A DNA stretch of 64,000 nucleotides from Woeseia oceani (GTDB lineage: Bacteria; Pseudomonadota; Gammaproteobacteria; Steroidobacterales; Woeseiaceae): positions 372,001-436,000 of the forward strand of contig NZ_CP016268.1 in assembly GCF_001677435.1 (NCBI RefSeq), in the 5' to 3' direction. This document shows, piece by piece, positions 31,185 through 50,275 of the stretch. A model generated the notes under the pieces. The model was not told the DNA's origin. It saw only the letters and a program-made list of their open reading frames with translations, and made no database searches. Position numbers and translations under genes: made by a program. Each line of letters starts with the position of its first letter. Positions within the stretch are counted from its first letter, which is position 1.

Positions 31185-31310
31185 CTCAATTGCTTTTGCT
31201 GTTCGCGCCGGGCGTGAATACCTGTCCTGACAGAGGCACTCCGTAACCACATAGTGTGGGCCGCAACAAAGACACCTGTACGGATACTGGCAATAAGACA
31301 AGGAACCGCT

Positions 31311-32614: not shown

Positions 32615-33964
32615 CTATCGCAGCTGTTGCACGAAAATGGCGAGGATTGCGGCAGGGCAGACAAAGCGCACGTAGCCGGGCCAGATTTTCCAGAACAAGC
32701 CGTTGTCGCTGCCGTCTGTACCTTTGCGTATCTCTTCGATCACCGTACTGCGCTGCCAGACCCAGCCGGCGAACACGCACATCAACAGACCGAGCAGCGG
32801 TTGGCTGTAGCGGGTCGTCAGGGAAACGACGAAACCGAACAGCGTGCCAAAGTTGAAAATGAGCACGGAGCTGACAAGAAGTATGGCGCCACCGATCATG
32901 AATGTCGCACGCTTGCGGTTCATGCCACGGCTCTCCACTGCGTACGCGACCGGCACTTCGAGCATGGAGATCGACGAGGTCAGCGCGGCCACGGCCATCA
33001 GCAGGAAAAATGCCAGCGCGACCACCAGTCCGGCGACGCCCATCGTGTTGAACAGTTCCGGCAGTACCGTGAAGATCAGCGTGTCTTCCGCGATCAAGCG
33101 GCCAGCGGCATCGTAAATTTCGACGCCGTTGTGCTGTGCGACGTACATGGCCGGGACAATCAGCATGCCTGCCGTGACAGCTATGCCGATGTCGAACAAA
33201 GTGACCGAGCGTCCCAGCGATACAATGTTTTCGCGGTCGCTGACATAGGAGCCGTAAATAAGCATGGTGCCGACGCCCAGGGACATCGAAAAGAACGCCT
33301 GGCCCATGGCACTGAGTATTAATGCCGGGTCCGTGATGCGACTGAAATCCGGTACAAGGTAGGCCCGGACGCCGTCGCTGGCGCCATCCAGAGTCAGTAC
33401 GTACACGATCAGCAACACCAGTATCGCGATCAATGCCGGCATCAGCCGCGTGCACCACTTTTCGATGCCTTCGCGGACGCCGCCACAGATTATCGCCACG
33501 GTCAGAACCATGAACACGCTGACGAACAGTAAATTGCGTTCCAGCGAGAAGTTGGTCAGCCAGGCGGATGTATCCGGCATGCCGAGTATGTCCGTAACGG
33601 CTGCCAGCGCGTAGGCGATCATCCAGCCGCCGACGATGCCGTAGAAACTCAGGATCAGGCTCGCCGTGACTATCCCGATGTAGCCGGTGCCAGCACCGAG
33701 TCGCCGGGTGAAGTCACCGCTTGCTATGCCGCGCAATGCGGCAACCGCGTTCGATTTGGCATGGCGACCAATGATCAGCTCGGCCATCAGCGCTGGAAAC
33801 GCGAGGCAAAACGCCAATACCAGGTACACCAGCAAGAATGCGGCACCGCCGTTGCTGGCCGCCTGTGTCGGGAACCCCCAGATGTTGCCGAGACCAATCG
33901 CGGAACCCGCTGCTGCGAGTATGAAACCGATTCTTGAACTGAATTCTCCGCGTGCGGTGGCCAA
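32615..33964 (-). CDS. Sodium-dependent neurotransmitter-symporter family (NSS/SNF) transporter
   Basis: 449 residues from a TTG start with AAGGAG eight bases before it. The LeuT-fold N terminus is clear: FSSRIGFILAAAGSAIGLGNIWGFP, with the unwound TM1 that binds Na+ and substrate. About eleven to twelve membrane spans follow, with the EGIEKWCTRLMP loop and the TM6 segment AFFSMSLGVGTMLIYGSY. Such bacterial transporters import amino acids with Na+. It is convergent with the three secreted hydrolases and could import amino acids they release (inference). The Na+ dependence agrees with a marine lifestyle. Confidence 0.88.
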   Translation of the reverse strand: MATARGEFSSRIGFILAAAGSAIGLGNIWGFPTQAASNGGAAFLLVYLVLAFCLAFPALMAELIIGRHAKSNAVAALRGIASGDFTRRLGAGTGYIGIVTASLILSFYGIVGGWMIAYALAAVTDILGMPDTSAWLTNFSLERNLLFVSVFMVLTVAIICGGVREGIEKWCTRLMPALIAILVLLIVYVLTLDGASDGVRAYLVPDFSRITDPALILSAMGQAFFSMSLGVGTMLIYGSYVSDRENIVSLGRSVTLFDIGIAVTAGMLIVPAMYVAQHNGVEIYDAAGRLIAEDTLIFTVLPELFNTMGVAGLVVALAFFLLMAVAALTSSISMLEVPVAYAVESRGMNRKRATFMIGGAILLVSSVLIFNFGTLFGFVVSLTTRYSQPLLGLLMCVFAGWVWQRSTVIEEIRKGTDGSDNGLFWKIWPGYVRFVCPAAILAIFVQQLR

Positions 33965-34253: not shown

Positions 34254-35528
34254 TCAGCGGATGCATTTGATGCCCGTCATAGCTTGCAGGTGACTGAGCG
34301 ATTCATCGCTGTGCAGTTGCAGGAACGGCGATACTGAAACGCCGCCTGGTGCATTGCGCACAAAACTGCCGGTTCCGGTCATGTAGTTCAGCGCACTCGC
34401 GTCGTGTATGACGTACGGCTCTTCGTTGATCGCGCCGAGATACAGCATGACGTGGCCCGGCGTGTAAATAAGATCGCCCGCCTGCAGCGAGCGCAATGCA
34501 GCGCGTTTCTCATCGTTCGTGCTCTGGTCGCTGAAACGGAGGTTCTCGCCAATCGGACTGGCACCCTGATCGTCCGAATTGCGCGGCAAATAGATGCCGA
34601 AGGTTCGGTAGATCTCGGCGACAAACCCGGAGCAGTCGCGGCTGTTGCGCGAGTGCCCCCAGCCGTAGACCTCACCCAGAAAGCAAAACGCCTGACGGAT
34701 CACGTGGCGTCGGGTGTAACTCAGGTAACCCGGGTGCACGTCGGCATCTTGCGGGATCAGGGCCGGCGCGAATCGCAACAGACCGTCCTCGCCACGCACG
34801 GGGAGTTCGACGATGTGGTGGTTGTTGCGTGCGTTCGGCGGAACGTTACACGGGCCGCTGTAGAGTGGCAGGCGGATACTCATGTCCAGCTGTATGCCGG
34901 AGGTTTGCGGCAAGGCGGGGTTGCTGGTGGTGTAGATCTTGGCACCGGTAACCAGCAAGAACCCGGTGTTCTCGGGTGATTCGAGCACCTGATCCCGCTC
35001 ACCGATGGCGACGGCATTGGCGTGCACCCAGCCGAGGTAGTTGTAGCTCTGTACCAGCAGCCAGCCCCGGTCTTTGCTTTGGTGCAGCACGGCAACCCTG
35101 TCCGTCGGGAACAGGCCGTTTTCCTGAAAGCGATCGAAGTCTTGCGGCGCCGTGGTCTTGCTGACGATGTCGTCTGTCGGGTAGCGACGCATGCTGGTGC
35201 GACGAACAATCAGGCCGAAACGAACGGGATTGCGATCCGCGATACCGGGGATGTTCAAACCGGCCTCGTACCGCGCATAGTCGTCGCGCTGCAACGCAAC
35301 GCCGCTTCGGTAGTAGTGCGTCTCATGCGGGATACGACTGACCCGCCTTAGCATCGCTGTTAATTCTGCCGCTGACAGTGTTGTCGGAAACGCGCGCAGG
35401 TCGGCGAGCGAGCGGGTCGTGGCAAAAGAGCGCTCGTTCATGGCGCTGATCTGCGCTGCCGTTAACAACCGCTCGTCAACGTTCGCCGTGTTCCCGATCC
35501 AGAATTCGGGCGTCAGGACGTCAGTCAC
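34254..35528 (-). CDS. SH3-domain NlpC/P60 peptidase (YkfC / dipeptidyl-peptidase VI type)
   Basis: 424 residues from GTG 35528; the ribosome site is weak. Two SH3b-like domains (about 95-180 with VRRTSMRRYPTDD and WLLVQSYNYLGWVHANAVAI, and 185-250) precede a C40 NlpC/P60 domain with catalytic Cys299 (SRDCSGFVAEIYRTFG), His359 (TPGHVMLYLG) and His375 (YVIHDAS). The family cuts gamma-D-Glu-meso-diaminopimelate or L-Ala-D-Glu bonds in muropeptides. No signal peptide is visible, so like YkfC it may work in the cytosol on imported peptides, unless the true start is further upstream. It lies 57 bp after the AmiD-like gene on the same strand, likely one operon. Confidence 0.85.
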   Translation of the reverse strand: MTDVLTPEFWIGNTANVDERLLTAAQISAMNERSFATTRSLADLRAFPTTLSAAELTAMLRRVSRIPHETHYYRSGVALQRDDYARYEAGLNIPGIADRNPVRFGLIVRRTSMRRYPTDDIVSKTTAPQDFDRFQENGLFPTDRVAVLHQSKDRGWLLVQSYNYLGWVHANAVAIGERDQVLESPENTGFLLVTGAKIYTTSNPALPQTSGIQLDMSIRLPLYSGPCNVPPNARNNHHIVELPVRGEDGLLRFAPALIPQDADVHPGYLSYTRRHVIRQAFCFLGEVYGWGHSRNSRDCSGFVAEIYRTFGIYLPRNSDDQGASPIGENLRFSDQSTNDEKRAALRSLQAGDLIYTPGHVMLYLGAINEEPYVIHDASALNYMTGTGSFVRNAPGGVSVSPFLQLHSDESLSHLQAMTGIKCIR

Positions 35529-35585: not shown

Positions 35586-36551
35586 TCACGAGCGGTCAGT
35601 GGTATCGATGTCGGCCGGCATTGCCTCTGGTGCCGGGGCGACCTCTGTGCGCAACAGTTCTTCAAGGCGTGCAGGAAAGTATTTTTCAATCAGCGCATAA
35701 AGAGTGGCGGTCGTTTCGAGGGTCGGTTCGCCGGTTACCTGGTAAGGGCGAAAATGCATTTGAAACGCGCTGATCACGTCCCGGGTCTGCTCGTCCAGTT
35801 CACCGCTTATCTCGATGCCGTAGCCGTAAGCGTTCAAGGCGCGCTGGATATTGTCCAGTGGCATGGGTTGCTGGCGGAATTGTTCCCAATAGCGAACGAC
35901 TGTTTCGTCATCAAACCACGCGCCATAGCCGAGCCGGTAAAGGCGTTGCCACGGGAAGCGCGGACCCGGATCGATCTTGCGGCCCGGCGCGATGTCCGAA
36001 TGGCCGACGATGTTGGTCGGCGAAATATCCGGATACCGCTTCAGCAAGTCATCGAGTAATTCGATGACAAGTTGCATCTGCGATTCGGCAAAGTCCGGGT
36101 AGAAGCAGAGGCGCTCGGTTTCTGCTCCGGTCGCCGACGTTATCGCGGGGCTGGAATGGCAGTACGTCTGATTCACGATTTCGATACCCAGCGACTGGTC
36201 ATTGAGCGCCGTGCGCCCACCCCAGTAACTGTGCCCGGCATGCCAGGCTCTGCCAGTTTCCGGAACGAGCTGGAATACCTTGAGTTCCTTGTCGGTGTAG
36301 CTGGCGTCGTCAGGCTCGGGAATGAGGTAGTGCGAGCTGACCGGGCGGCTTGAAGGCTGGGTCAGGATACGCAGCGAGTCGCCGAAATTGGCGGTCGTGT
36401 GGTGCAGAACGATGATGGAAATTCGGCTGTTGTAGTTCGCGGAATCTGCGCGAACCGGGGCGCCGTTTGCGCAACCTTGTAGCAAATACGCGACGGCCAG
36501 CAGGGCGACGGGAATACGGGCGTTCCGTGCTCGGAAATAACGAAAAAGCAT
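35586..36551 (-). CDS. amiD: Lipoprotein N-acetylmuramoyl-L-alanine amidase (AmiD-like)
   Basis: 321 residues with a lipobox (AYLLQGC, Cys27). Amidase_2/PGRP domain with zinc ligands His50 or His51 (IVLHHTT), His184 (IVGHSDIAPGR) and Asp194 (KIDPGP), plus Glu124 in LGIEIVN. A C-terminal peptidoglycan-binding_1-like domain (about 235-292: LDNIQRALNAYGYGIEISGE, DVISAFQMHFRP) follows. This is the E. coli AmiD plan: an outer-membrane lipoprotein that removes the peptide from MurNAc, including anhydro-MurNAc. It would produce free peptides for the NlpC/P60 peptidase encoded next. The Asp zinc ligand rather than Cys agrees with Amidase_2 enzymes. Confidence 0.88.
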   Translation of the reverse strand: MLFRYFRARNARIPVALLAVAYLLQGCANGAPVRADSANYNSRISIIVLHHTTANFGDSLRILTQPSSRPVSSHYLIPEPDDASYTDKELKVFQLVPETGRAWHAGHSYWGGRTALNDQSLGIEIVNQTYCHSSPAITSATGAETERLCFYPDFAESQMQLVIELLDDLLKRYPDISPTNIVGHSDIAPGRKIDPGPRFPWQRLYRLGYGAWFDDETVVRYWEQFRQQPMPLDNIQRALNAYGYGIEISGELDEQTRDVISAFQMHFRPYQVTGEPTLETTATLYALIEKYFPARLEELLRTEVAPAPEAMPADIDTTDRS

Positions 36552-36786: not shown

Positions 36787-39759
36787 ATGCGTCAACAACC
36801 ATGGTCGGCTGAAAGGTCGAATTTTCGCAACAAGTTGAATCGGGTGTGGGCAGTGCTCGCCCTTGGCCTCGCGTTTTTCGCAGCGCCGGCATTCGCCCAG
36901 CAAACGGGTGATATCAGCGGTAAGGTCACCGACAGCAGCGGTGCCGGTGTGGCCGGGGTGTCGATCACCGCGAGCAGTAATGTACTGCCGCAGGCGCGCA
37001 CGACCAGTTCGTCCGCCAGCGGTCGCTACCGCATGCCGTTGTTGCCACCCGGTAATTACGAAGTGCGTTTCACCTTCCCCGATGGCTCTACTCTGGTGCG
37101 CAATGCCGCGGTAATTCTGCAGCAAAACTCCGAAGTCGATGTCACCATGGGCGTCGCCCAGGCACAGATGGAAGAAATCATGGTGCTGGGCACGCAGGCG
37201 CTCGCCGATACGGGCCAGGCCTCGCTCAAGAACTCAGTGAATGCGGCGACCATTGACGCATTGCCTGTCGGTCAGGAATACCGCGATCTGATGAAGCTCA
37301 TTCCGGGCGTCCAATACAGTGAAGACACCGTTCGTGGCCCCAGCTCCGGCGGCAGCGGTCAGGACAACGGTTACCAGTTCGACGGCGTTGACGTTTCTCT
37401 GCCGCTATTCGGTACTTTGTCTGCCGATCCTTCCTCGCACGATATCGCGCAGGTATCCATCGTTCGCGGTGGTGCCAAAGCTATAGGCTTCAACCGTTCT
37501 GGCGGTTTTTTGATGAACACGGTGAGCAAGTCCGGTACGGACGAATTCACTGGCGAAGTCAGTTACAAGATGCAGTCCGCGAGCCTGACCGGTGACCGCG
37601 AAACCGGCGACAACCCGCTGGAGTTCGATGAAGACAAAGACTGGCTGACAGCCAGCTTCGGCGGCCCGATCTTGCGAGATCGTCTGTATTTCTACACGTC
37701 TTACTATGCGCCGACCGCAACCCGCGACAACACCGCCAATGCGTATGGCCCGGTTGGTGATTTTGACGACTCGCGTGACGAGTTCTTCGGCAAACTGACC
37801 TTTTCGCCGACTGACAACATCCTGCTGAATGGCAGCTTCCGCACGTCTGAGCACGAGATTAGAAATCGCAGTGTCGGCACGTTCGGCGCTGCTTCAACGT
37901 CCGAAGGCGACAAGTCCACGCTGGATATTGCCATTCTTGAAGGCTCCTGGATTGTCACCGACGATGACGCGATAAACTTCAAGTACACGCATTTCCAGAA
38001 CGACAACTCATCGCGTCCTGACACATTGTTCGGTTTCCAGATCGCCGAGGGTGATTCGCTGAACATTAACGCGCTGGATCAGCTGGGTAACTTCACGGTT
38101 CCCACTCCGATAGCCGGCGAAACGGCGTACAACGCCTTCATTCAGCCTTACATTGACCAGTACGGCTACAGTGACGGCGGTGTTGCGACCGGCGGCGGTA
38201 ACGTTGGCGGTGGCAGTACCCTCGATGACCAGAATTTCATGCGGGAAAGCTTTGAAATCGGCTACGACCGCCTGTTCTACGCGGGCAATGTTACTCATGA
38301 TCTGCACATTGGCTACCAGTACCAGACCATTGAGGAAGAGCTGTCACGTACTTCGAATGGCTGGGGTTCGATCACTGTGCCCGGTGGCCGCGTAATGGCA
38401 ACTGACGGTGTTACGCCGATCTTCTTCCAGGCGACGTTCGAGCAAATGAGTCTGCTGACCGGTGGGGGCGCGGCGATTCCGCCGATCGTTTCCACGGTTG
38501 ACATGCAGAGCTTCGAGATCAACGACACGATCGAAGTTGGTGACTGGACTTACAACGTTGGCGTTCTGTTCAGCAATGACGTTCTGTACGGCCAGGGTCT
38601 GGCTGCAGACTCATCCAATCCGCTGACCGGGCTGACCCCGTCACCGGGCTCCGTGTACAAGATGTACGAAGTGGACTGGAAAGACATGATCCAGCCACGC
38701 CTCGGCGTGAACTGGGATTACTCCGACACCAGTTCCATGTACGTTAACTACGCGAAGTACAACCCGTCGGCCTCGTCACTGGCTCGCGCCGCATCGTGGG
38801 ACAGAAACCTGCGTCGCAGCATTCGTGCCAATTTCGATCAGAACGGCAACTTCATCGAAGTTGATCCGGTGGGTTCATCCTCGGGCAAGGTTTTCGATGA
38901 CGACCTGACACCGCGTTCCATCGACGAGTACCTGGTCGGTTGGACGAAAGACGTCAACAGCGACCTCGTGGTACGTGCGCACGTTCGTTACCGCAAGGGC
39001 GGTCACTTCTGGGAAGACACCAACAACACGGCGCGCGTTGATTACAACCCGCCGGCTGGTATCCCCCGCGAGCCGTACGTTCCGAACCTGGACGACATCC
39101 GCGCTGAAATCGGCGGTTCGTCTTACGTGATCGCCGAGCTCGATGGTGGTTATACGAAGTACTACGAGGCGAGCGTCGAAGCCGAGTGGAATCTCGACAA
39201 CCTGTTCCTGCGCGGTTCCTACGTGTGGAGTCACTACTACGGTAACTTCGATCAGGACAACACCACTACGGACAACGATCAGAACATTTTCATCGGTTCG
39301 TCTAACATCGGTGACGATGCAGGACGTCAGTTGTGGGACTTCAAGGACGGCAATCTGAAAGGGGACCGTCGCCACATGCTGAAGGTGTACGGTTACTACC
39401 TGTTTAACTGGAACGGTTCAGCCGGTGCCTACCTTGTGTATCAGTCCGGTCAGCCGTGGGAGTCATGGGACGTCGAAGTCTATCGGGCACTCACTTCCAG
39501 CACCAGCGACACGATCCGTTACTCGGAGCCTGCGGGTTCTCGTACGACCTCGGCTCACTGGCAGCTTGACCTGAATTACACGCACAACTTCCAGGTCTTT
39601 GGTGATCAGAATATCCAGTTGCGAGCGGACATCTTCAACGTGTTCGATCGTCAGACCGGGTACAACATCGAGCCACGTGTGAACAATGACAACTACGGAC
39701 TCCCGCAGGATTTCTTCAATCCGCGAAGAATCCAGCTGGCGGTCAAGTACCAGTTCTAA
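36787..39759 (+). CDS. TonB-dependent receptor with carboxypeptidase-regulatory-like N-terminal domain
   Basis: 990 residues, ATG 36787 after GGGAGAAAGG. Signal peptide about 14-39 (WAVLALGLAFFAAPAFAQ). A CarboxypepD_reg/Ig-like domain (about 42-115: GDISGKVTDSSGAGVAGVSI, GRYRMPLLPPGNYEVRFTF) is followed by a TonB box (EEIMVLGTQ, about 122-130), a plug (LPVGQEYRDLMKLIPGVQYS) and a long barrel ending VKYQF. This is the Oar-like type, without an STN domain, so it imports but should not signal. A hairpin separates it from the lipoprotein-phosphoesterase, symporter and nagAB genes. An amino-sugar or muropeptide ligand is inferred from that context. Confidence 0.85.
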   Translation: MRQQPWSAERSNFRNKLNRVWAVLALGLAFFAAPAFAQQTGDISGKVTDSSGAGVAGVSITASSNVLPQARTTSSSASGRYRMPLLPPGNYEVRFTFPDGSTLVRNAAVILQQNSEVDVTMGVAQAQMEEIMVLGTQALADTGQASLKNSVNAATIDALPVGQEYRDLMKLIPGVQYSEDTVRGPSSGGSGQDNGYQFDGVDVSLPLFGTLSADPSSHDIAQVSIVRGGAKAIGFNRSGGFLMNTVSKSGTDEFTGEVSYKMQSASLTGDRETGDNPLEFDEDKDWLTASFGGPILRDRLYFYTSYYAPTATRDNTANAYGPVGDFDDSRDEFFGKLTFSPTDNILLNGSFRTSEHEIRNRSVGTFGAASTSEGDKSTLDIAILEGSWIVTDDDAINFKYTHFQNDNSSRPDTLFGFQIAEGDSLNINALDQLGNFTVPTPIAGETAYNAFIQPYIDQYGYSDGGVATGGGNVGGGSTLDDQNFMRESFEIGYDRLFYAGNVTHDLHIGYQYQTIEEELSRTSNGWGSITVPGGRVMATDGVTPIFFQATFEQMSLLTGGGAAIPPIVSTVDMQSFEINDTIEVGDWTYNVGVLFSNDVLYGQGLAADSSNPLTGLTPSPGSVYKMYEVDWKDMIQPRLGVNWDYSDTSSMYVNYAKYNPSASSLARAASWDRNLRRSIRANFDQNGNFIEVDPVGSSSGKVFDDDLTPRSIDEYLVGWTKDVNSDLVVRAHVRYRKGGHFWEDTNNTARVDYNPPAGIPREPYVPNLDDIRAEIGGSSYVIAELDGGYTKYYEASVEAEWNLDNLFLRGSYVWSHYYGNFDQDNTTTDNDQNIFIGSSNIGDDAGRQLWDFKDGNLKGDRRHMLKVYGYYLFNWNGSAGAYLVYQSGQPWESWDVEVYRALTSSTSDTIRYSEPAGSRTTSAHWQLDLNYTHNFQVFGDQNIQLRADIFNVFDRQTGYNIEPRVNNDNYGLPQDFFNPRRIQLAVKYQF

Positions 39760-39848: not shown

Positions 39849-42290
39849 ATGCTCTGGAAGAAACAGCCCATCCTTAAACTTATAAAACCGGCCGTGTTGA
39901 CGGCAGCGATCCTGCTTCTCGGCGCCTGCAAGCCAGCGACTTCGTTGTCGGATGATGCCTTGCTCCTGCCGGCGCTTGATGCGGCCGAAATGCGCTGGAT
40001 CGCAAGTCGCATCTACCAGAACGAAACCCGCGGCCAGGCGCGCTACCTGACCCATTGGGGGGCTGGCGAGGATTTTCCGTCGCTCGGCATCGGTCATTTC
40101 ATCTGGTTTCCTGCCACCGTCGATGCACCGTTCGACGAATCGTTTCCCGCTCTGGTGAGCTACCTCAACGCACATGAGAATGCCTGCGCAGTAATGCCGG
40201 ACTGGCTTGCCGAACTCGAACCGTTTGCCGCTCCCTGGGCGGACCGGGAAGGATTCGAAGCGGCGCTGGATTCCGACAACATGCTGCAGCTACGCCTTTG
40301 GCTGGCCGCAACCGCTACCGAGCAAGCGCAGTACATCGTCGACAACTTCAGTCGGCGCTGGAGCGAGATTGACCTGCCGACCGAAGACTACCGGGCACTC
40401 ACCGCGCTACTGCAGGACTTGATGCAGACCTCCGGGGGGCGTTTCGCGGTCATTGATTACGTGAACTTCAAAGGTCTGGGCACCAATCCCCGGGAACGCT
40501 ATGCCGGTGAAGGCTGGGGCCTGATGCAGGTGCTGAGTGACATCGTTGCCGCTCGCGCAGACGGAGATGCGACCGGCAGTCTCGTCGAACAGTTCAGCGC
40601 GGCCGCCGCCGCGCGGCTGCGACAACGGGTCGAACTCGCACCGCCGGAGCGTAACGAGGCGCGTTGGCTTGCCGGCTGGATGCGGCGGGTCGGCGACTAT
40701 GCCTCGCTCCCCGTCGAGTCCGCGCGCGCGCAGTACGCCGGCTTCAGGGTGCAGCCTTACCTGCAAAACCCGACGTCGACTTCCATGAACGTGATCTGGT
40801 TCAGCGATGCCGCAACGGCGGGAGAGCTGAGCCTGCTTGCCGGCGAGGAAAACGGCGGCGTCGTGCAGGTCATACAGACCACGCCAGCCGCGGCATGCGA
40901 GCTCGGCTACCACCCAAGAGAGCTGGCCTCGCTTGAGAATGGCCGCTTGCCCACAGCGCCTTTCAAACACGTCGTGGAATTGTCAGACCTGCAGCCGGGC
41001 GCTGCTTATCGTTACACCGTCGTGCAGAACGGCCAGCAGGCCAGTGGTGAATTTCGTACACCAGGCCCGGCCGATGAAGCACTGCGGTTCGTCGTCTATG
41101 CCGACAGCGAGACGGAGCCGGAATCGGTCGGCAAGCCGTCGGCTTGGGGCGGCTGGGACGATGCGCCCGGCGAACGGCCATACCCTGTTGATCAGGACAC
41201 CGGCTATCGCGAGAACCTGCGGGTGATGGCCAATGCCAAACCGGATTTTATCGCCATCGCGGGTGACCTTGTGCAATCAGGCGGTGAGCAGCGCGACTGG
41301 GATGAATTCTGGCGACTGAATGCGGCTATCGCGGCCACCACACCCATTTATCCGGCGCTCGGCAATCACGAGTATTTTGCCGGGCCCGGCGCATTCGGTG
41401 ATTACGGTGCGGATGCGAGTCGGCGTGCCGTCCAAAAGTACAAAGGCTATTTTTCGTTCCCTGACAACGGTGCTGACAATGAAGCACACCAGGGTTCCTA
41501 TTACGCAATCCAGCGCGGCCCGGTCAGCCTGATTGTCATCGATGGCAATGACGGCGTCCCGCACCGCAGCGATACAGACACGAACTGGTACTTACGTGAC
41601 CAAAGTCAGGGTGGTGTCGCGCCGGCCTGGAATCCGGGCTCTCGCCAATACGTATGGCTGGAAGAGCGTTTGCGACATGCGCAGCAGAACAGTGCATTTA
41701 CGTTTGTCATGTTCCATGCCGCACCGTATTCATCGGGCGTACATGCCTTGCCGCCCGGGCTGGGCGAGGGCAAGGACTACCTGCCGGGCACACCGCTGCG
41801 GGCGCTGACGCCGCTGTTCTCACGTTACGGTGTCGATGCCGTGTTCAGTGGTCACGATGAACTCTACGAGCATTCTGTGGTGCCCGGTACCGAGGTGCTG
41901 CCCGGCGGCGGCAGTGCAGAACATGCCGTGCATTTTTACGTCGTCGGAATTGGTGGTGACGGTTTGCGTGGCGCCGCTCGTGAGGTGCGCAATCCGTACC
42001 GGGTGTTTTCTGCCGCGGCCGATGCGCCGGAACAGTACGATGACAACGGCATGCTGATCGACGGTGGTATCCACTACGGACACTTGCGGGTAACGGTGAA
42101 TCAGGCTTCTGCCGGCTACTGGCAGGCACAACTGGAACCGGTTTACCTGTTTCCGCTGTTTGCCGCGGATGGCACGGTGCGGGCATTCGAGCCACGAAAC
42201 TATGCCGATGTGACGGTGTTGCGCGGCATGCAGGTCAATGCCGACAACGAAGCTGCAGTCAACAATGCACGGGAGACGGACGAGCAATGA
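39849..42290 (+). CDS. Lipoprotein with a lysozyme-like N domain fused to a purple-acid-phosphatase-type metallophosphoesterase
   Basis: 813 residues. Lipobox LLGAC with Cys27. Residues about 40-290 form a separate domain with IYQNETRG (Glu59) and SLGIGHFIWFP (80-88), then VNFKGLGTNPRERYAGEGWG. The Glu followed by a GIGH turn resembles the catalytic entrance of T4-type lysozymes, so a muramidase-like activity is possible but unproven. Residues 297-405 look like a fibronectin-type PAP N domain (VQPYLQNPTSTSMNVIWFSD). Residues 412-680 are a metallophosphoesterase with YADSE, AGDLVQSGG, GNHEYF (505-510), MFHAAP (His623) and SGHDELYEHS (His669, His675). It overlaps the symporter gene by 4 bp and heads a likely nagAB operon. 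Confidence 0.75.
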   Translation: MLWKKQPILKLIKPAVLTAAILLLGACKPATSLSDDALLLPALDAAEMRWIASRIYQNETRGQARYLTHWGAGEDFPSLGIGHFIWFPATVDAPFDESFPALVSYLNAHENACAVMPDWLAELEPFAAPWADREGFEAALDSDNMLQLRLWLAATATEQAQYIVDNFSRRWSEIDLPTEDYRALTALLQDLMQTSGGRFAVIDYVNFKGLGTNPRERYAGEGWGLMQVLSDIVAARADGDATGSLVEQFSAAAAARLRQRVELAPPERNEARWLAGWMRRVGDYASLPVESARAQYAGFRVQPYLQNPTSTSMNVIWFSDAATAGELSLLAGEENGGVVQVIQTTPAAACELGYHPRELASLENGRLPTAPFKHVVELSDLQPGAAYRYTVVQNGQQASGEFRTPGPADEALRFVVYADSETEPESVGKPSAWGGWDDAPGERPYPVDQDTGYRENLRVMANAKPDFIAIAGDLVQSGGEQRDWDEFWRLNAAIAATTPIYPALGNHEYFAGPGAFGDYGADASRRAVQKYKGYFSFPDNGADNEAHQGSYYAIQRGPVSLIVIDGNDGVPHRSDTDTNWYLRDQSQGGVAPAWNPGSRQYVWLEERLRHAQQNSAFTFVMFHAAPYSSGVHALPPGLGEGKDYLPGTPLRALTPLFSRYGVDAVFSGHDELYEHSVVPGTEVLPGGGSAEHAVHFYVVGIGGDGLRGAAREVRNPYRVFSAAADAPEQYDDNGMLIDGGIHYGHLRVTVNQASAGYWQAQLEPVYLFPLFAADGTVRAFEPRNYADVTVLRGMQVNADNEAAVNNARETDEQ

Positions 42291-43792
42291 ATATCGGCAT
42301 AGGTCTCACCGACTCCGTTGTCATTGTCAGCTACATGTTGCTGGTATTGGCCATCGGCTTGTGGATAGGCCGCGGCAAGCAATCGTCGGCTGACTATTTC
42401 CTCGGCAATCGTTCCATGCCGAGCGCCGCCTTGCTGTTGTCGATTGTCGCGACAGAGACCAGCACGGTTACCTTCCTCAGCATTCCCGGCATTACCGCAG
42501 CGGCCGGTGGCAACCTGACTTTTTTGCAGATCACCATCGGCTATATCGTCGGCCGCTTGTTTGTCGTTTTCGTCTTGCTGCCGTTGTACTTTCAGGGCAA
42601 GCCGTTCACTGCCTACGAGGTGCTGGAGACGCGCTTCGGCCGGCTCAGCCGGCGGATGGTGTCGACCCTGTTTCTCGTGACCCGCAATGCCGGCGATTCT
42701 CTGCGCCTGTTCCTGACCGCGCTGGCCCTGCAGATCGTGCTGGGTCTGGACCTGACGATGAGTGTGATAGCGATCGGTAGCGTCACGATTCTGTATACCT
42801 TCATCGGCGGGGCGAAGTCTGTCATCTGGAACGATTGCATCCAGTTCATCATCTACATGCTGGGCGCAGCGATTGCAGCGGTCATTATCACTGACGCTGT
42901 GCCCGGCGGACTGGGCGACATCATTGCGCTCGCCGAGGCAGGGGACAAATTCCGCTTTCTGGATTTCAACCCGAGCCTGGTGCACCCGACCATGACGTTC
43001 TGGGCGGGGCTGGCCGGCGGCGCCTTCCTGACCGCGGCGACGCACGGCACGGATCAATTGATGGTGCAGCGCTACCTGTCGGCGAAAAGTCAGCGCGGAG
43101 CGGCGATTGCATTGGGTCTCAGTGGTTTCATCGTCTTGCTGCAGTTCGCGGTTTTTCTGTTGATCGGTATCGGACTCGCGGCCTTGTTTCAAACCACCGG
43201 TGTAACCGGTGGAGAGCAGGCGATGAAGAGCGATCAGCTGTTCGCCTACTTCATCGTCAACTACATGCCAGTCGGTTTGCTCGGGCTGACCCTGGCGGCC
43301 GTCTTCGCCGCGGCGATGTCCACTTTGTCGAGTTCACTCAACGCCTCTGCCGCCGTGTTCATGAATGACCTGTACAAGCGCTCGCGGCAACGAGAACCTG
43401 GCTCGGAAATGCGCGCGAACCGCACGGCGACCATCTTCTTCGGCATCGTGCAAACCGGTCTTGCGATTCTGTTCGGGATGCTGGAGTCGAGTGAAAGCAT
43501 CGTCGCTAATGTGCTGAAAGTTGCCGGCTTCGCCATCGGCCCGGTGCTGGGCATGTACTTCCTGGCGGTATTCACAACGCGTGTGCAGCAGGCCCATGCG
43601 TTAGCGGGATTTGTGACGGGCGTCGTCGTACTATCATTGGTGGCGTTCGGCAGCAATGTGTTCTGGGCGTGGTACGCCCTGATCGGTTCGCTGGTAACGC
43701 TGGCCGCCGGTCAGCTGGCCTGCGTGCTGGATACCCGATCATTGCCAATGAGCGAGACCAGCGGAAGCCCGGATAAGAATTCAGCAACGTGA
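42287..43792 (+). CDS. Sodium:solute symporter (SSS family)
   Basis: 501 residues with about thirteen membrane spans. SSS signatures are GRGKQSSADYFLGNRSMP after TM1, LLLSIVATETSTVTFLSIPG, the TM4-5 loop TRNAGDSLRLFLTALALQI and GTDQLMVQRYLSAKSQRGA. The family moves sugars, sialic acid, amino acids or vitamins with Na+. Its 4-bp overlap with the lipoprotein gene and the 10-bp gap to nagA indicate an amino-sugar substrate such as GlcNAc or a GlcNAc/MurNAc saccharide (inference). A kinase for free GlcNAc could be the BadF-family gene at 47.9 kb. Confidence 0.85.
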   Translation: MNIGIGLTDSVVIVSYMLLVLAIGLWIGRGKQSSADYFLGNRSMPSAALLLSIVATETSTVTFLSIPGITAAAGGNLTFLQITIGYIVGRLFVVFVLLPLYFQGKPFTAYEVLETRFGRLSRRMVSTLFLVTRNAGDSLRLFLTALALQIVLGLDLTMSVIAIGSVTILYTFIGGAKSVIWNDCIQFIIYMLGAAIAAVIITDAVPGGLGDIIALAEAGDKFRFLDFNPSLVHPTMTFWAGLAGGAFLTAATHGTDQLMVQRYLSAKSQRGAAIALGLSGFIVLLQFAVFLLIGIGLAALFQTTGVTGGEQAMKSDQLFAYFIVNYMPVGLLGLTLAAVFAAAMSTLSSSLNASAAVFMNDLYKRSRQREPGSEMRANRTATIFFGIVQTGLAILFGMLESSESIVANVLKVAGFAIGPVLGMYFLAVFTTRVQQAHALAGFVTGVVVLSLVAFGSNVFWAWYALIGSLVTLAAGQLACVLDTRSLPMSETSGSPDKNSAT

Positions 43793-43802: not shown

Positions 43803-44954
43803 ATGAAACAACGACTCACAAACTGCCGGCTTTTTGACGGTGAGAACGTTTACCGCGACAAAGACCTGTTGCTCGCCAATGGCCAGGTAGTCGATGTGAT
43901 CGATACCGCCGACGGTTTTTCGGCCGACTACGTTATCGACGACATCGGCGGCCGGTTGCTCGCACCCGGATTGATCGATCTGCAGGTTAACGGCGGTGGT
44001 GGCGTGCTGTTCAACGACGCGCTAACGGTCGATGCGCTGCGAACCATCGCGGCCGCACACCGGCAATACGGGTCGACGGCTATCCTGCCGACACTCATCA
44101 CCGATAGCGACGACGTTGTGGATGCCGCGCTGGCTGCTGTTACTGATGCGATTGCGGCAAAGGTACCGGGCATCATCGGTATTCATCTTGAGGGCCCGTA
44201 CCTCAACCCCCGCTACAAAGGGGTCCACGATGCGGGTCGAATGCGGGCCATGGATGACGCGGCCGTTGCACGCATCGAGGCGTCTCGTGCCGGGCCGACA
44301 TTGCTAACGCTGGCGCCGGAAACAGTGGCGTCAGAACTGATCAGCCGGCTCAGTGACAGCGGAATTATTGTTTTCGGCGGTCACAGCGCGGCCACTTACG
44401 AACAAACCCGCCAGGCGCTCGACGCAGGCATGCGCGGTTTCACGCATCTCTTTAACGCGATGTCGCCGATGCAAAGCCGCGCTCCGGGTATGGTCGGCGC
44501 AGCGCTGGAAGATCGCGACAGTTACTTCGGCATTATCGCCGACGGTCACCACGTGCACCCCGCGGTATTCAGCATTGCCGTAGCCGCGAAGACACAGGGC
44601 AAGGCATTGCTGGTTACCGATGCGATGCCCAGTGTGGGTTCGGACAGGAAAACATTCGACCTGTTCGGTGTTGCCGTTCGCGCCGAGGGAGGGCGCTGCC
44701 TGACGGTGGACGGCACGCTGGCGGGTGCGGACATTGGCATGATCACGGCGGTAAAAAACGCCAGCACGTTCGCCGGGCTCGACCGCTTCGAAGCCTTGCG
44801 TATGGCATCCGCGTACCCGGCCGCCGCATTGGGCGTTGATGATCAGCTCGGTTACCTCAAAGCAGGTTACCGCGCGAACCTGATCGAACTCGATGCCGAC
44901 ATGAACGTATGCCGTAGCTGGATCGACGGCGACGTGCAAATTCACAGTCACTGA
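43803..44954 (+). CDS. nagA: N-acetylglucosamine-6-phosphate deacetylase
   Basis: 383 residues, normal NagA length. Motifs: LAPGLIDLQVNGGGG near the start, IHLEGPYLNPRYKGVHD (metal Glu), FGGHSAAT and THLFNAM (metal His), IIADGHHVHP and VTDAMPSVG (catalytic Asp). It converts GlcNAc-6-P to glucosamine-6-P and acetate in the cytosol. It lies 10 bp after the symporter and 6 bp before nagB, clearly one operon. It receives GlcNAc-6-P from the MurQ etherase and the amino-sugar kinase encoded just downstream. Confidence 0.92.
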   Translation: MKQRLTNCRLFDGENVYRDKDLLLANGQVVDVIDTADGFSADYVIDDIGGRLLAPGLIDLQVNGGGGVLFNDALTVDALRTIAAAHRQYGSTAILPTLITDSDDVVDAALAAVTDAIAAKVPGIIGIHLEGPYLNPRYKGVHDAGRMRAMDDAAVARIEASRAGPTLLTLAPETVASELISRLSDSGIIVFGGHSAATYEQTRQALDAGMRGFTHLFNAMSPMQSRAPGMVGAALEDRDSYFGIIADGHHVHPAVFSIAVAAKTQGKALLVTDAMPSVGSDRKTFDLFGVAVRAEGGRCLTVDGTLAGADIGMITAVKNASTFAGLDRFEALRMASAYPAAALGVDDQLGYLKAGYRANLIELDADMNVCRSWIDGDVQIHSH

Positions 44955-44960: not shown

Positions 44961-45758
44961 ATGGATATCGTTATCCTGAGAGACAGCGCGGCAGTGGCTG
45001 CCGAGGGTGCGCGTCGGGTACGGACGTTGCTGCACAAGAAACGTGACGCGGTGCTGGGCCTCGCAACCGGCGGCACGCCGCTGGCAATGTACCGGCGGCT
45101 GGTTGCGGACTACGAGCAGGGCCGGGTGTCATTCGCCAAAGCCATAACTTTCAATCTCGACGAATACGTGGGTCTCGGTGCCGATGATCCGCAAAGTTAT
45201 CGTTATTACATGAACCGCGAGTTGTTCGACAAGACCGATATCTTGCACAGCAACACGCATCTCCCCGTGTGCGCCGACGGAGACGATCCCGATTCGGTCG
45301 GGCCGGTTTACGAAGCGGCAATTCGGGCCGCGGGCGGAATCGATCTGCAGATACTCGGCATCGGCCGCAACGGTCACATCGGCTTTAACGAACCAACCTC
45401 CAGCCTGCGTTCACGTACGCGGGTGAAAACGCTGACCCGTGAGACTCTGGAAAGCAACAGCCGTTATTTCGATGACCCGGCACGGCAGCCGAAGATCGCA
45501 ATCACCATGGGCATTGCCACTATTCAGGAGGCCGCTGCGGTGTTGTTGCTGGCAACCGGCGAGGCCAAGGCGGAGGCCGTGCAGCAAATGATCGAAGGCC
45601 CTGTGTCAGCGATGTGGCCCGCGACCGCATTGCAGTTGCACGAGAAAGCCACGGTGCTCATTGACGATGCCGCGGCCAGTCGTCTGCAACAGCGTGATTA
45701 CTACGATTGGATCAGCGAGCAGCGACGGGCCCTGGAGTCGCAGTACGGTGGCGGTTGA
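44961..45758 (+). CDS. nagB: Glucosamine-6-phosphate deaminase
   Basis: 265 residues. LGLATGGTPLAMYRRL is the phosphate loop, Asp67 lies in FNLDEYVGL, and GIGRNGHIGFNEP (133-145, His139) is the active-site stretch. It converts glucosamine-6-P to fructose-6-P and ammonia, the exit from the amino-sugar route to glycolysis or, here, to glucose-6-P and the Entner-Doudoroff genes at 60 kb. It ends 46 bp from the convergent namZ-like gene. No allosteric C-terminal extension was evident. Confidence 0.92.
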   Translation: MDIVILRDSAAVAAEGARRVRTLLHKKRDAVLGLATGGTPLAMYRRLVADYEQGRVSFAKAITFNLDEYVGLGADDPQSYRYYMNRELFDKTDILHSNTHLPVCADGDDPDSVGPVYEAAIRAAGGIDLQILGIGRNGHIGFNEPTSSLRSRTRVKTLTRETLESNSRYFDDPARQPKIAITMGIATIQEAAAVLLLATGEAKAEAVQQMIEGPVSAMWPATALQLHEKATVLIDDAAASRLQQRDYYDWISEQRRALESQYGGG

Positions 45759-45804: not shown

Positions 45805-47019
45805 TTAGTGGTACAGCAGGTAGGACTCGCGACGTTCGCGAAATGCGCCAAGCTCGTCAGCATAGACGGCAAGTATTCCTGCGTACGGCGTGCCCGCGCG
45901 AACCGCCTGCAATGTGCGTTCATTGCCAAGCAGTCGCAGGTAGCGATCACTTTCCCAACCTTCCCCGTACGACAATGCGAGTTGCCGGGCAATCTCGAAA
46001 CCGGTTCGCAGCGGATCGAAGCGCGCGCGGTCGGTGATGGTGAAACGCACACCGTGGCAGAGTTCGTTCGCAAATTTGCTGGCATCGGGCGTAAACACCG
46101 TCGCCGCAAAGTGAATGCCCGGGAGCTTGGCCGCATTGAGCTGGCTTGCAAGCCTGTCGCCATCCAGCCAGGGTGCGCCGATGATTTCGAACGGTGTCGC
46201 GGTCCCGCGCCCGACCGACAGATTGGTCGTTTCCAGCAGACCAATACCGGGGTACAGCAACGCTTGCGTGAGGCTGCGCATGTTCGGCGACGGATTCACC
46301 CAGCGCAGGCCGGTGGCATCGAAATACTGCTGGCGTTTCCAGCCCTGCAACCCGACCACTTGCAGGTCGACACCGATGTCCAGTTCAGCGTTGAACAAGC
46401 GCGCCAGTTCACCAACGGTCATGCCGTGCCGAACAGGAATGCGATGAATGCCGACAAACGATTGCCTGCCTTCGTCGGTAACCGGCCCGCTCACGTCGAC
46501 ACCGTTGATGGGGTTCGGGCGGTCGAGCACGACAAAGCGCATACCGTGTTCGGCCGCTGCCCGCATGGCTTCTGCCATGGTCGAAATGTACGTGTAGAAG
46601 CGGGTGCCGATGTCCTGGATGTCGAAGACCAGCGTATCGATACCGGCAAGCATTTCGGCAGTTGGCCGGCGCGTCTCGCCGTAGAGACTGAATACCGGGA
46701 TTCGGCTCAGTTGATCGACGCCGTGATCGATGTGCTCAACATCCAGTGTGCCGGCAATGCCGTGCTCGGGGCTGAATATTCGGACCAGCTCAACGTTCGG
46801 GGCGCTGTGCAGGAGTTGTATCGTGCTTCGCCCGTCGCGGGCGATGCCGGTGTGGTTGGTAAGCAGCGCAACGCGTTGCCCGGCAAGCGGCCGGAAATCG
46901 TCGCGCGCCAGAACATCGACGCCAGTGAGTACCGGGCTGGCACCGCAAGCGGCGAGCACGAATGTACAGGTAAGCAGCGCCAGGAGCGGCAAGTGTTCTA
47001 CGAAGCGGAAGCGCAGCAA
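45805..47019 (-). CDS. namZ: NamZ-type exo-beta-N-acetylmuramidase (DUF1343), lipoprotein
   Basis: 404 residues from TTG 47019 (another TTG nine codons in is possible). Lipobox VLAAC with Cys25. DUF1343 core: RVALLTNHTGIARDGRST, FSPEHGIAG, VFDIQDIGTRFYTYISTM, LDRPNPINGVDVSGP and VNPSPNMRSLTQALLYPG. Family members (NamZ of Bacillus and Tannerella) release MurNAc from the non-reducing end of peptidoglycan glycans. It is divergent from murQ with only 44 bp between starts. It would supply MurNAc or MurNAc-containing units for the murQ-kinase-permease operon. Confidence 0.85.
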   Translation of the reverse strand: MLRFRFVEHLPLLALLTCTFVLAACGASPVLTGVDVLARDDFRPLAGQRVALLTNHTGIARDGRSTIQLLHSAPNVELVRIFSPEHGIAGTLDVEHIDHGVDQLSRIPVFSLYGETRRPTAEMLAGIDTLVFDIQDIGTRFYTYISTMAEAMRAAAEHGMRFVVLDRPNPINGVDVSGPVTDEGRQSFVGIHRIPVRHGMTVGELARLFNAELDIGVDLQVVGLQGWKRQQYFDATGLRWVNPSPNMRSLTQALLYPGIGLLETTNLSVGRGTATPFEIIGAPWLDGDRLASQLNAAKLPGIHFAATVFTPDASKFANELCHGVRFTITDRARFDPLRTGFEIARQLALSYGEGWESDRYLRLLGNERTLQAVRAGTPYAGILAVYADELGAFRERRESYLLYH

Positions 47020-47063: not shown

Positions 47064-47960
47064 ATGCAAAAAGAACTGACAACAGAGGCGCGCAATCCGG
47101 CGTCGATGGAACTGGACCGACTCAGTACCATCGAGTTCGTTCGCTTGATGAACAACGAAGACGCGAAACTCGCGGCGGCGGTTGCCGAACAGGCGCCAGC
47201 CATTGCTGAAGCGATCGATCTTATTGCCAGCCGGCTGGCGGCTGGCGGCCGACTGGTCTATGCCGGTGCTGGTACGTCCGGGCGGCTCGGTGTGCTGGAT
47301 GCGTCCGAGTGCCCGCCGACTTTCAATACCGATCCCGGGCAGGTGCTGGCATTGATTGCCGGCGGTGCAGAGGCCGTGTACCGGGCCGTTGAAGGTGCAG
47401 AAGATTCGCGAGCGCAGGGTGCGGAGGATTTACGTGGCATCAACTTCACGACCGGCGACGTGCTGGTCGGCATAGCCGCCAGTGGTCATACCCCGTACGT
47501 CCTCGGTGGCTTGCAGTACGCCCGGCAGATCGGCGCTGCTACGGTGGGCTTCAGCTGCAATGCAGGCAGCCCCGTGGTGACGGAGGCGGACATCGGCATA
47601 GCGGTGACCGTCGGGCCGGAAGTGTTGTCGGGATCAACCCGCCTTAAAGCCGGCACGGCGACCAAGATGGTGCTGAACATGTTGACGACCGGTGCGATGG
47701 TGAAGCTCGGCAAGACCTACGGCAATCTGATGGTGGATCTGCAGGCCAGCAACCAGAAGTTGGTCGAACGTTCGCTGCGGATTGTGCAGCAGTTAACAGA
47801 TCTTTCGGATACTGACGCACGTGAGCTGCTGAACGACTGCGACGGCGAGTTGAAGACTGCCATCGTCTGTCAGCAGCTCGGAATTACCCCGGAGTCAGCG
47901 CGTGCCCGGCTGACCGAAACCGGCGGTCGCTTGCGTGCGGCACTGGAAGATCATGACTGA
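47064..47960 (+). CDS. murQ: N-acetylmuramic acid 6-phosphate etherase
   Basis: 298 residues, the size of E. coli MurQ. The SIS fold is clear: LTTEARNPASMELDRLSTIE, LVYAGAGTSGRLGVLDASEC with catalytic Glu82 in ECPPTF, then AVEGAEDS, GIAASGHTPYV and the KMVLNMLTTGAMVKLGKTYG helix. It cleaves the D-lactyl ether of MurNAc-6-P to GlcNAc-6-P, the substrate of the neighbouring nagA. No clear ribosome site precedes the ATG, and a TATAGT at 47052-47057 lies 6 bases upstream, so a leaderless message is possible. It overlaps the next gene by 8 bp. Confidence 0.93.
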   Translation: MQKELTTEARNPASMELDRLSTIEFVRLMNNEDAKLAAAVAEQAPAIAEAIDLIASRLAAGGRLVYAGAGTSGRLGVLDASECPPTFNTDPGQVLALIAGGAEAVYRAVEGAEDSRAQGAEDLRGINFTTGDVLVGIAASGHTPYVLGGLQYARQIGAATVGFSCNAGSPVVTEADIGIAVTVGPEVLSGSTRLKAGTATKMVLNMLTTGAMVKLGKTYGNLMVDLQASNQKLVERSLRIVQQLTDLSDTDARELLNDCDGELKTAIVCQQLGITPESARARLTETGGRLRAALEDHD

Positions 47961-48906
47961 CGCTCAGCAAACGCTGATCATCGGTGTGGACGGTGGCGGC
48001 ACCAAGACCACCGCGCGGGTGGCAAGCATCGCGGCGGACGGCAGTATCAACACACTGGGGACCGGCTTCGGCGGCCCGTCGAATGTCCGCGCGGTCGGCA
48101 CCGTGCACGCCCGCACGAATCTCGACGTTGCCGTTGATGCGGCTCATGAAGTCGCGGGTACCGCCAGTCAAAAAGTCCGAAAGGCGATTCTCGGGCTCGC
48201 CGGCAGTTCCTTGCCGGACGTGCAGGCTGTCATTCGCGACTGGGCGGAACGTCGCGCGCTGGCGGAGCAAATCGATATCGTCCATGACGCCGAGTTGTTG
48301 CTCGCGCTGGGGGTGCGCGCCGGTTGCGGGATCGGGCTGGTCGTCGGCACGGGCTCGGTCGCTGTCGGTATCAATGCCGCCGGTGAGCGCGCTGTCATCG
48401 GTGGCTGGGGGCACTGGTTCGGTGATCAGGGCAGCGGTTTTGACACGGGTCGACGCGGACTGTCGGCGGTGGCCGACGCCGTCGACGGCATCGGTCCGCC
48501 GACGGCGCTGGTTGCAGGGTTGACCCGGCGACTGCAGATCGATGATCCGCGGGAAATTACCCGGCAGCTCGGCCGTTCGGTCGACATACGTCAGGAAATT
48601 GCGGCCCTGGCACCCGTGGTCATGCAGGCGGCAATCGATGGCGATGCGGTCGCTGTTGCGCTCATCGACAACGGCGCCAAGGCTACGGCGGCGCTGGTTG
48701 CCGCGACCGTTCGCAAGCTGGGGCTCAGCGACCGTGTACCGCTGGCCATGGCCGGTGGCATCGCCTGTTCCGGCGACTTCTATCGCGACAAACTGCTGAG
48801 CCAGCTGGGTGCCCAGGGTATAAAGCCGCACCCTTTGACGGTCGTAAGCGAACCCGTCGAAGGCGCGCTCGTGATGGCCCGCGACCAGATACGTTCAGGA
48901 AGCTGA
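47953..48906 (+). CDS. BadF-family amino-sugar kinase (MurK/NagK-like)
   Basis: 317 residues from ATG 47953, overlapping murQ by 8 bp. It belongs to the ASKHA/BadF fold: phosphate-1 loop IIGVDGGGTKTTARV, GFGGPSNVRAVG, adenosine region VVGTGSVAVGIN and GGWGHWFGDQGSGFD. Relatives phosphorylate GlcNAc, and MurK-type members phosphorylate both MurNAc and GlcNAc. With MurQ next to it, MurNAc 6-kinase activity is the best inference, since no PTS transporter (MurP) is present to phosphorylate MurNAc. The stop is directly followed by the TTG start of the permease gene. Confidence 0.85.
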   Translation: MTDAQQTLIIGVDGGGTKTTARVASIAADGSINTLGTGFGGPSNVRAVGTVHARTNLDVAVDAAHEVAGTASQKVRKAILGLAGSSLPDVQAVIRDWAERRALAEQIDIVHDAELLLALGVRAGCGIGLVVGTGSVAVGINAAGERAVIGGWGHWFGDQGSGFDTGRRGLSAVADAVDGIGPPTALVAGLTRRLQIDDPREITRQLGRSVDIRQEIAALAPVVMQAAIDGDAVAVALIDNGAKATAALVAATVRKLGLSDRVPLAMAGGIACSGDFYRDKLLSQLGAQGIKPHPLTVVSEPVEGALVMARDQIRSGS

Positions 48907-50187
48907 TTGCAGGCGCCGCAAAAAACCAGTCCCTGGCTCTGGATACCGAGCGTCTATTACGCGCAGGGCATCCCGTTCGTCGTCGTGATGATGGTCTCCG
49001 TCATCATGTACAAACGGCTGGGTGTCTCCAACGCCGACATCGCGTTTTACACGAGCTGGCTTTACCTGCCGTGGGTGATCAAGCCGATCTGGAGCCCGCT
49101 GGTCGATATCGTGAAGACCCGGCGTTACTGGATAGTGGCGATGCAGTTGCTGATCGGTGCCGGTCTTGCGGGCATAGCGCTCACTTTGCCGACCAGCGAT
49201 TTCTTCCGCTACTCGCTGGCCGTGTTTTGGTTGCTGGCCTTCAGCTCCGCCACCCACGATATTGCGGCAGACGGCTTTTACATACTGGGCTTGAGTGAAC
49301 GGCAGCAGGCCTGGTTCGTCGGCTTTCGCAGCACCTTCTTTCGCCTGGCGATGGTGACCGGCCAGGGGCTGCTGGTCATGCTGGCGGGTTATCTTGAGAC
49401 CCGTACCGGCAGCATCACGCTGGCCTGGAGCCTGACCTTCTATTGTCTGGCCGGGCTGTTCGTCGCACTGTTCGTCTGGCATCGCTTCGTATTGCCGCGC
49501 CCGGCCGGGGATGTCGCCGGGCGCAGCGATGCCCTGAGCGTCATGTTGCGCGAAGCCGTCGATACCTTCGTGAGCTTTTTTCGCCGGCCGTACATAGGCC
49601 GGATATTGGCGTTCTTGCTGTTGTACCGCTTCGCGGAAGCACAGCTGGTGAAAATGTCCGGGCCGTTCATGCTCGACACGAGAGCCGAGGGCGGTCTGGA
49701 GCTGAGTACTTTCGACGTCGGTTTCGTCTACGGCACCGTGGGCGTCGCCCTGTTGACCATTGGCGGGATATTGGGCGGCATTCTGGCCGCCCGGCACGGA
49801 CTCCGCCGCTGGTTCTGGTGGATGGTGCTGGCCATCAATCTGCCCAATGTGGCCTATGTGTTCCTCGCTTATCTGCAGATCGAGAATCTGCTGCTCATCA
49901 ATATGGCCGTGGGCATAGAGCAATTCGGCTACGGCTTCGGTTTTACGGCGTACCTGTTGTACATGATTTACGTCGCGCGCGGTCCGCACAGTACTGCGCA
50001 CTATGCGATTTGCACCGGCTTCATGTCGCTCGGCATGATGCTGCCGGGCATGGTGAGCGGCTGGCTGCAGGAGCTGTTGGGCTACCAGAGTTTCTTTATC
50101 TGGATACTGGTCGCTACAATCCCCTCTTTCCTGGTCGTCTGGGCGGTACCGCTCGATCGGGATTTTGGCAAGAGCGGCGCGCCATAA
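48907..50187 (+). CDS. AmpG-like MFS permease for muropeptides or amino sugars
   Basis: 426 residues from TTG 48907, directly after the kinase stop, with AGGAAG 4-9 bases upstream. It has the MFS plan with about twelve spans and AmpG-like segments: IPSVYYAQGIPFVVVMMVSV, PWVIKPIWSPLVDIVKTRRYW, SSATHDIAADGFYILGLSERQQ. The last two agree with AmpG/AT-1-like permeases of the inner membrane. Coupling to murQ and the kinase resembles the MurT-MurK-MurQ set of Tannerella, so MurNAc or GlcNAc-MurNAc import is plausible. Classic AmpG transports anhydro-muropeptides, but no cytosolic AmpD, NagZ or AnmK is seen here. Confidence 0.82.
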   Translation: MQAPQKTSPWLWIPSVYYAQGIPFVVVMMVSVIMYKRLGVSNADIAFYTSWLYLPWVIKPIWSPLVDIVKTRRYWIVAMQLLIGAGLAGIALTLPTSDFFRYSLAVFWLLAFSSATHDIAADGFYILGLSERQQAWFVGFRSTFFRLAMVTGQGLLVMLAGYLETRTGSITLAWSLTFYCLAGLFVALFVWHRFVLPRPAGDVAGRSDALSVMLREAVDTFVSFFRRPYIGRILAFLLLYRFAEAQLVKMSGPFMLDTRAEGGLELSTFDVGFVYGTVGVALLTIGGILGGILAARHGLRRWFWWMVLAINLPNVAYVFLAYLQIENLLLINMAVGIEQFGYGFGFTAYLLYMIYVARGPHSTAHYAICTGFMSLGMMLPGMVSGWLQELLGYQSFFIWILVATIPSFLVVWAVPLDRDFGKSGAP

Positions 50188-50275
50188 TTTGCCATTAGTT
50201 TCACGTATCGTCGCCACATCACTGGTCCAGAGTACTCAAAGCTCGATCAGCAGCAGGTCATTCGGAGATAAGCAT

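Follow-up and report, generated by a model that had tools for sequence, protein, structure and literature searches.

A fusion gene found in several genomes

The gene at positions 39849 to 42290 of the window analysed here (the whole stretch of 64,000 nt between 372,001 and 436,000 on the forward strand of Woeseia oceani NZ_CP016268.1) appears to code for an exported protein with a lysozyme-like half and a phosphoesterase half, which raises the questions of whether the fusion is real, what each half is and which function the whole protein could have. The open reading frame is present as it had been given in the original prediction, and the protein has the domain order lipoprotein signal, lysozyme-fold domain as predicted (N domain), purple acid phosphatase (PAP) N-terminal or FnIII-like domain and metallophosphoesterase, located as follows:

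39849..42290, + strand: fusion gene, 813 amino acids, ATG start (open reading frame; architecture also in other genomes and loci)
39849..39929, + strand: signal peptide with the lipobox LGAC, Cys27 being the predicted lipidation site (hydrophobic stretch and lipobox scan)
39981..40703, + strand: predicted lysozyme-superfamily domain, residues 45-285 (AF2 pLDDT 95; VIA top rows GH46, T4L and pesticin)
40746..41057, + strand: PAP N-terminal (FnIII-like) domain, PF16656 (Pfam; FnIII and PAP rows in Foldseek)
41082..42197, + strand: metallophosphoesterase domain with PF00149 core and altered metal ligands (Pfam, 54 bits; Foldseek)

The lipobox with Cys27 makes the product a candidate exported lipoprotein, as had been claimed, and the N domain contains the NET (58-60, with Glu59) and SLGIGHF (78-84) sequences described in it. 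Complete fusions were also found in 11 further genomes or loci (G340, G348, G357, G358, L040-L043 and L045-L047), with about 53-57% identity. Given the relatives of the N domain, at least 570, and the invariance of Glu59 and His83 (see below), the observation is far beyond chance, confirming that the open reading frame with its N domain is real. In the literature searches, the architecture of a lysozyme-like domain fused to a phosphoesterase was found nowhere described.

Predicted fold of the N domain

Residues 39-298 had no match in Pfam, NCBIfam or the PDB sequences, and residues 45-285 none in PHROGs either. Their AF2 model, built with a 50-sequence alignment, reached a pLDDT of 95 and a pTM of 0.91. 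Comparison of this model with the PDB by Foldseek alone gave no significant match, only unrelated rows, and the relation to lysozymes emerged only after the 379 Foldseek candidates were re-aligned with VIA-align. Rows 1-11 of the resulting list are all GH46 chitosanases, with 190-209 residues aligned at Z 9.1-10.7 (up to Z 10.7, with 206 residues aligned and an rmsd of 4.6), values around 10 being possible by chance for helical models. Rows 12-34 comprise the VgrG3 hydrolase domain, T4 lysozyme (T4L) and many of its chimeras, pesticin, the DLP12 and EC340 endolysins and 2nr7; some rows labelled as receptors or kinases are T4 lysozyme fusion constructs. The first unrelated rows, bromodomains, appear at rank 35 with a Z of 4.8. 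The rows from the BFVD viral library were headed by three weak matches with non-significant E-values, namely a phage glycoside hydrolase (probability 0.92), a PlyB-like endolysin and a protein of the lysozyme family. It is the consistency across these structure lists, and not any single score, that leads us to predict for the N domain a lysozyme-superfamily fold with a central helix and a beta-hairpin at the cleft; structure prediction gave no confident non-lysozyme fold, in agreement with the original prediction.

The comparison of profiles was in part at variance with it. The hhalign probability was 6% against a small GH24 alignment and 0.3% against a small GH46 alignment, neither of them significant, although the GH24 alignment does sit on the GIGH hairpin, the only part aligned. 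Neither PF00959 (GH24) nor PF01374 (GH46) matched in the Woeseia oceani genome or in 50 homologs of the N domain. With these probabilities, sequence homology to GH24 or GH46 is not claimed and the N domain is filed in neither family.

Judged by structure, the nearest family is the GH46 chitosanases rather than T4 lysozyme, both belonging to one superfamily. The GH46 enzymes (PF01374; 1qgi, 1chk and 7c6d) resemble the N domain in predicted fold over about 200 residues, and both have a Glu that ends the first helix and a hairpin with Ser or Thr, whereas the second acid is Glu in the N domain and Asp in GH46, and the genomic context of the N domain points to peptidoglycan. The T4-type lysozymes of GH24 (PF00959), pesticin and the endolysins have in common with it the lysozyme fold and the GIGH hairpin turn, mostly with 143-179 residues aligned at Z 5-7.6 by VIA. 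Compared to T4 lysozyme, the N domain is about 100 residues longer and has GEDFPS in place of the T4 segment preceding GIGH.

Candidate active site

In all families of the lysozyme superfamily the general-acid Glu lies at a helix end (E11 in T4 lysozyme, E37 in GH46), and a beta-hairpin, with a water-positioning Ser or Thr (T26 in T4 lysozyme, T60 in GH46), is the most conserved region (Wohlkonig et al., PMC2976769). The helix-end Glu, the conservation of the hairpin and its Ser or Thr were all three found in the N domain:

40023..40025, + strand: Glu59, the putative general acid, closing the first helix at its C-terminal end (110/110; model helix 7-22)
40065..40106, + strand: beta-hairpin GEDFPSLGIGHFIW (73-86) with Glu74 and Ser78 (conservation; strands in the model)

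The original prediction depended on the conservation of Glu59 and His83 among homologs, and both are invariant in 110 of 110. Glu59 corresponds to residue 21 of the model, ending the long helix 7-22. Glu74 is likewise invariant in all 110, next to a variable Asp75, and position 78 is occupied by Ser in 109 homologs and by Thr in one. The most conserved 11-residue segment of the N domain is FPSLGIGHFIW (76-86), within the hairpin. As VIA reports alignment ends only, the residue register had to be inferred from the start positions, in which model residues 1, 5, 3 and 11 pair with chain residues 17 (1qgi), 6 (1chk), 7 (4olt) and 1 (T4L, 1jqu), respectively. If no gap precedes it, Glu59 would fall on Glu37 of 1qgi, Glu22 of 1chk, residue 25 of 4olt and Glu11 of T4L.

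On the basis of the conservation, the position at the helix end and the VIA register, we propose that Glu59 would donate the proton, Glu74 would act as the base and Ser78 would hold the attacking water, in an inverting mechanism comparable to those of T4 lysozyme (E11/D20/T26) and GH46 (E37/D55/T60).

Genomic context and proposed function

The fusion gene is located in a conserved peptidoglycan-catabolism cluster, made up of the following genes:

34254..35528, - strand: NlpC/P60 endopeptidase with SH3 domain (Pfam; conserved neighbour)
35586..36551, - strand: N-acetylmuramoyl-L-alanine amidase, Amidase_2 plus PG_binding_1 (Pfam; conserved neighbour)
36787..39759, + strand: TonB-dependent-receptor-like outer membrane protein, CarboxypepD_reg (receptor inferred, the regulatory domain alone being matched; conserved neighbour)
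42287..43792, + strand: SSS sodium:solute symporter, its start overlapping the fusion stop (family matches; conserved neighbour)
43803..44954, + strand: NagA-type deacetylase (Pfam)
44961..45758, + strand: NagB-type glucosamine-6-phosphate deaminase (Pfam)
45805..47019, - strand: NamZ exo-beta-N-acetylmuramidase (Pfam NamZ_N and NamZ_C)
47064..47960, + strand: MurQ N-acetylmuramic acid 6-phosphate etherase (TIGR00274 above cutoff)
47935..48906, + strand: BadF/NagK-type amino-sugar kinase (family matches)
48907..50187, + strand: candidate AmpG/MFS-like muropeptide transporter (by inspection of its translation)

A MurA gene is also part of the cluster, and a NagZ-type GH3 and AnmK are encoded elsewhere in the Woeseia oceani genome. 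An antisense open reading frame (48895-50217, - strand) was dropped as the transporter, whose gene is on the + strand. The fusion gene shares four bases with the symporter gene (ATGA, 42287-42290), after which come nagA and nagB, both as anticipated; a candidate exported lipoprotein beside genes of peptidoglycan catabolism also agrees with the cell-wall setting that had been suggested. The gene order is kept in L040-L046, some of these loci ending at contig ends. Among 61 genomes of the family to which the window belongs, the N domain was found in 8, a close NamZ in 8 and both in 7. The N domain of L041, a Woeseiaceae locus, is identical to that of one of these genomes. The deepest fusion, L047, is not in such a cluster but beside a RpiR regulator, a beta-lactamase-fold protein, an alanine racemase and an NlpC/P60 fragment.

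Some further genes were observed around the cluster and in its relatives. Upstream, the region 25135-32426 codes for a TonB receptor, a class A beta-lactamase-type protein, a D-aminoacylase-type amidohydrolase and a second beta-lactamase-fold protein, and may extend the peptidoglycan and D-amino-acid catabolic region; an SNF-type sodium symporter gene (32615-33964, - strand) also lies beside the cluster. In L041, a gene for a GlcD-type FAD oxidase that by inspection resembles D-lactate dehydrogenase (11642-13030) is located between the SSS and NamZ genes, at a place from which nagA and nagB are absent. As MurQ forms D-lactate as its by-product, this oxidase would fit the catabolism of MurNAc.

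We consider it likely that the fusion protein is an exported, probably lipid-anchored, endo-acting murein glycan hydrolase with an accessory phosphoesterase. The N domain would cut inside the glycan strands of peptidoglycan, the fragments would be trimmed by the adjacent amidase and NlpC/P60 peptidase, by NamZ and by the NagZ of the genome, and the trimmed products would be imported and then degraded by the kinase, MurQ, NagA and NagB. The contents of the cluster are alike those of the NamZ/NagZ/MurQ pathway of peptidoglycan recycling and scavenging, with the difference that the endo-acting step would be carried out here by an uncatalogued family of predicted lysozyme fold, fused to a phosphoesterase. 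The cluster thereby offers a testable role for the protein, as the missing endo-acting step of cell-wall scavenging in a dominant marine sediment group.

The GH46 chitosanases at the top of the structural list could also be taken to mean that the N domain is an endo-hydrolase of another amino-sugar polymer, such as chitosan or chitin oligomers, with its products used by NagA and NagB, which serve GlcNAc whatever its source. However, NamZ, MurQ, the amidase, NlpC/P60 and the AmpG-like transporter are specific for peptidoglycan, and similarity to GH46 is absent at the sequence level, making this reading unlikely. Quite unlikely too is that the N domain acts as a lytic transglycosylase, supplying AmpG with 1,6-anhydro-muropeptides. 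Lysozyme-fold lytic transglycosylases retain the single catalytic Glu, and the AmpG-like gene in the cluster and AnmK in the genome could be read in the same sense, but the invariant second acid Glu74 and the hairpin Ser/Thr78 suit a hydrolase, and NamZ and MurQ process ordinary MurNAc ends.

The phosphoesterase half

Pfam assigns only the second half of the protein, with the PAP N-terminal domain at residues 302-403 (PF16656, 30.6 bits for a cut-off of 30) and Metallophos at 456-670 (PF00149, the calcineurin-like metallophosphoesterase superfamily, 54.3 bits against a curated cut-off of 21.5). Foldseek with the full-length model retrieved plant PAPs (3zk4, E 3e-16) and PhoD (2yeq). Like plant PAPs (3zk4, 1kbp) and PhoD, the fusion has an FnIII-like N-terminal domain followed by the metallophosphoesterase core, and it keeps Asp419, Asp473, Asn506, His623 and His669. 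These canonical residues, with the pair Asn506-His507, are invariant in 8 aligned fusions. Two positions differ from the PAPs:

41274..41276, + strand: Gln476 where PAPs have the Tyr of GDxxY; homologs carry Gln or Glu (alignment with 3zk4 and fusions)
41853..41861, + strand: His669-Asp-Glu671 for the HxH of GHxH (alignment with kidney bean PAP and 8 fusions)

In the sequence alignments, GDLVQ of the fusion pairs with GDLCY of 3zk4, and its GHDE with GHVH of kidney bean PAP. The seven-ligand metal set of PAPs is consequently incomplete, with two iron-site ligands changed (Tyr to Gln/Glu476, and the second His of GHxH to Glu671), and a purple chromophore is not expected. Position 476 is Gln or Glu in the 8 fusions, and Glu671 is invariant in them. 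The phosphoesterase had been described as completely PAP-like, which is right for the fold, but too strong for a protein with two replaced iron-site ligands. As the confidence of the full-length model is low around the PAP active site, the geometry of the metal site is not argued from it.

The same changes were detected in L039 (from G342), a secreted PAP-like protein without N domain, 34% identical, which carries GDLVQ and GHSE, has lost the His of GNH (GNW instead) and ends in a repeat-rich C-terminal tail; these changes hint at a subfamily whose metal sites are drifting. Since the ligand changes are kept in the 8 fusions and found in the distant L039, the phosphoesterase half is, judged from these alignments, a distinct subfamily with a putatively acidic metal site, and we would regard it as an accessory phosphoesterase.

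In the tree of N domains all fusions fall in one clade (support 97/91). L036 and L037 have the N domain without phosphoesterase, flanked by the TonB gene on one side and the symporter on the other, and group with a fused sequence within this clade (93/88). The simplest reading of the tree is one fusion event followed by a loss of the phosphoesterase in the L036/L037 lineage. Since this lineage lost the phosphoesterase but retained the N domain together with its translational overlap with the symporter, the N domain appears to be the core of this slot in the cluster and the phosphoesterase an accessory to it.

This bears on the function put forward originally, that of a dual enzyme cutting glycan and removing phosphate from teichoic acids or from phosphorylated muropeptides, here taken to be those of other bacteria. 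Fusions of about 53-57% identity have both halves conserved, and enzymes of the metallophosphoesterase fold include phosphodiesterases such as PhoD, but the replacement of the two iron-site ligands and the loss of the half in L036 and L037 do not support phosphate removal from wall polymers, and teichoic-acid genes were not seen among the neighbours, leaving the teichoic-acid proposal without support; we regard the dual enzyme as improbable.

Spread of the N-domain family

Among 299 genomes sampled from the phylum, 50 have the N domain, and in almost all of these it forms a protein by itself, some 270-330 residues long. The scan of genome contigs yielded at least 578 candidate stretches, of which at least 570 were confirmed by tblastn, and no relatives were found in viral contigs with the patterns used. 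Marinobacter, Thiomicrorhabdus, Saccharospirillum, Verrucomicrobia, Chlamydiae, Kapaibacteria/Ignavibacteria, Campylobacteraceae and Sumerlaeaceae are among the carriers of the 80 relatives kept, giving at least six phyla, a count to be taken cautiously because many carriers are metagenome bins. Of 110 sequences, 106 have a strongly hydrophobic segment ahead of the domain and 48 contain a lipobox, so that the family is predicted to be one of exported proteins. The 50 homologs had no convincing match and no common family in Pfam, NCBIfam or PHROGs. The N domain thus appears to represent a large and widespread family within the lysozyme superfamily that none of these three libraries lists.

A lysozyme-fold domain that only binds glycan or regulates, without catalysis, is highly improbable. 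Its invariant Trp, Phe and Tyr residues could bind glycan, but a binding module would not usually have the acid, the second acid and the Ser/Thr conserved in 110 of 110 sequences over many phyla.

Beyond the murein hydrolase proposed above, we suggest tentatively that the N domain founds a new family of lysozyme-superfamily glycoside hydrolases acting on peptidoglycan, and that in Woeseiaceae the fused phosphoesterase, with an acidic metal site unlike that of PAPs, acts on a phosphorylated wall fragment, which would be an undescribed two-step enzyme. Lysozyme-fold hydrolases being well catalogued, a family of many phyla absent from the three libraries is worth naming and testing, and it would aid the annotation of hundreds of exported proteins now called hypothetical in Marinobacter, Verrucomicrobia and others.

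Among the neighbours of the standalone homologs no consistent link to peptidoglycan was found; most of them, from Marinobacter and Verrucomicrobia, have no obvious peptidoglycan genes alongside, and the recurrent neighbours are mostly Marinobacter housekeeping genes. In several Marinobacter genomes (L054, L055, L056, L059 and L101) the standalone gene lies near transporter genes of the MacB/FtsX-HlyD type, which resemble genes at 52444-57000 of the window.
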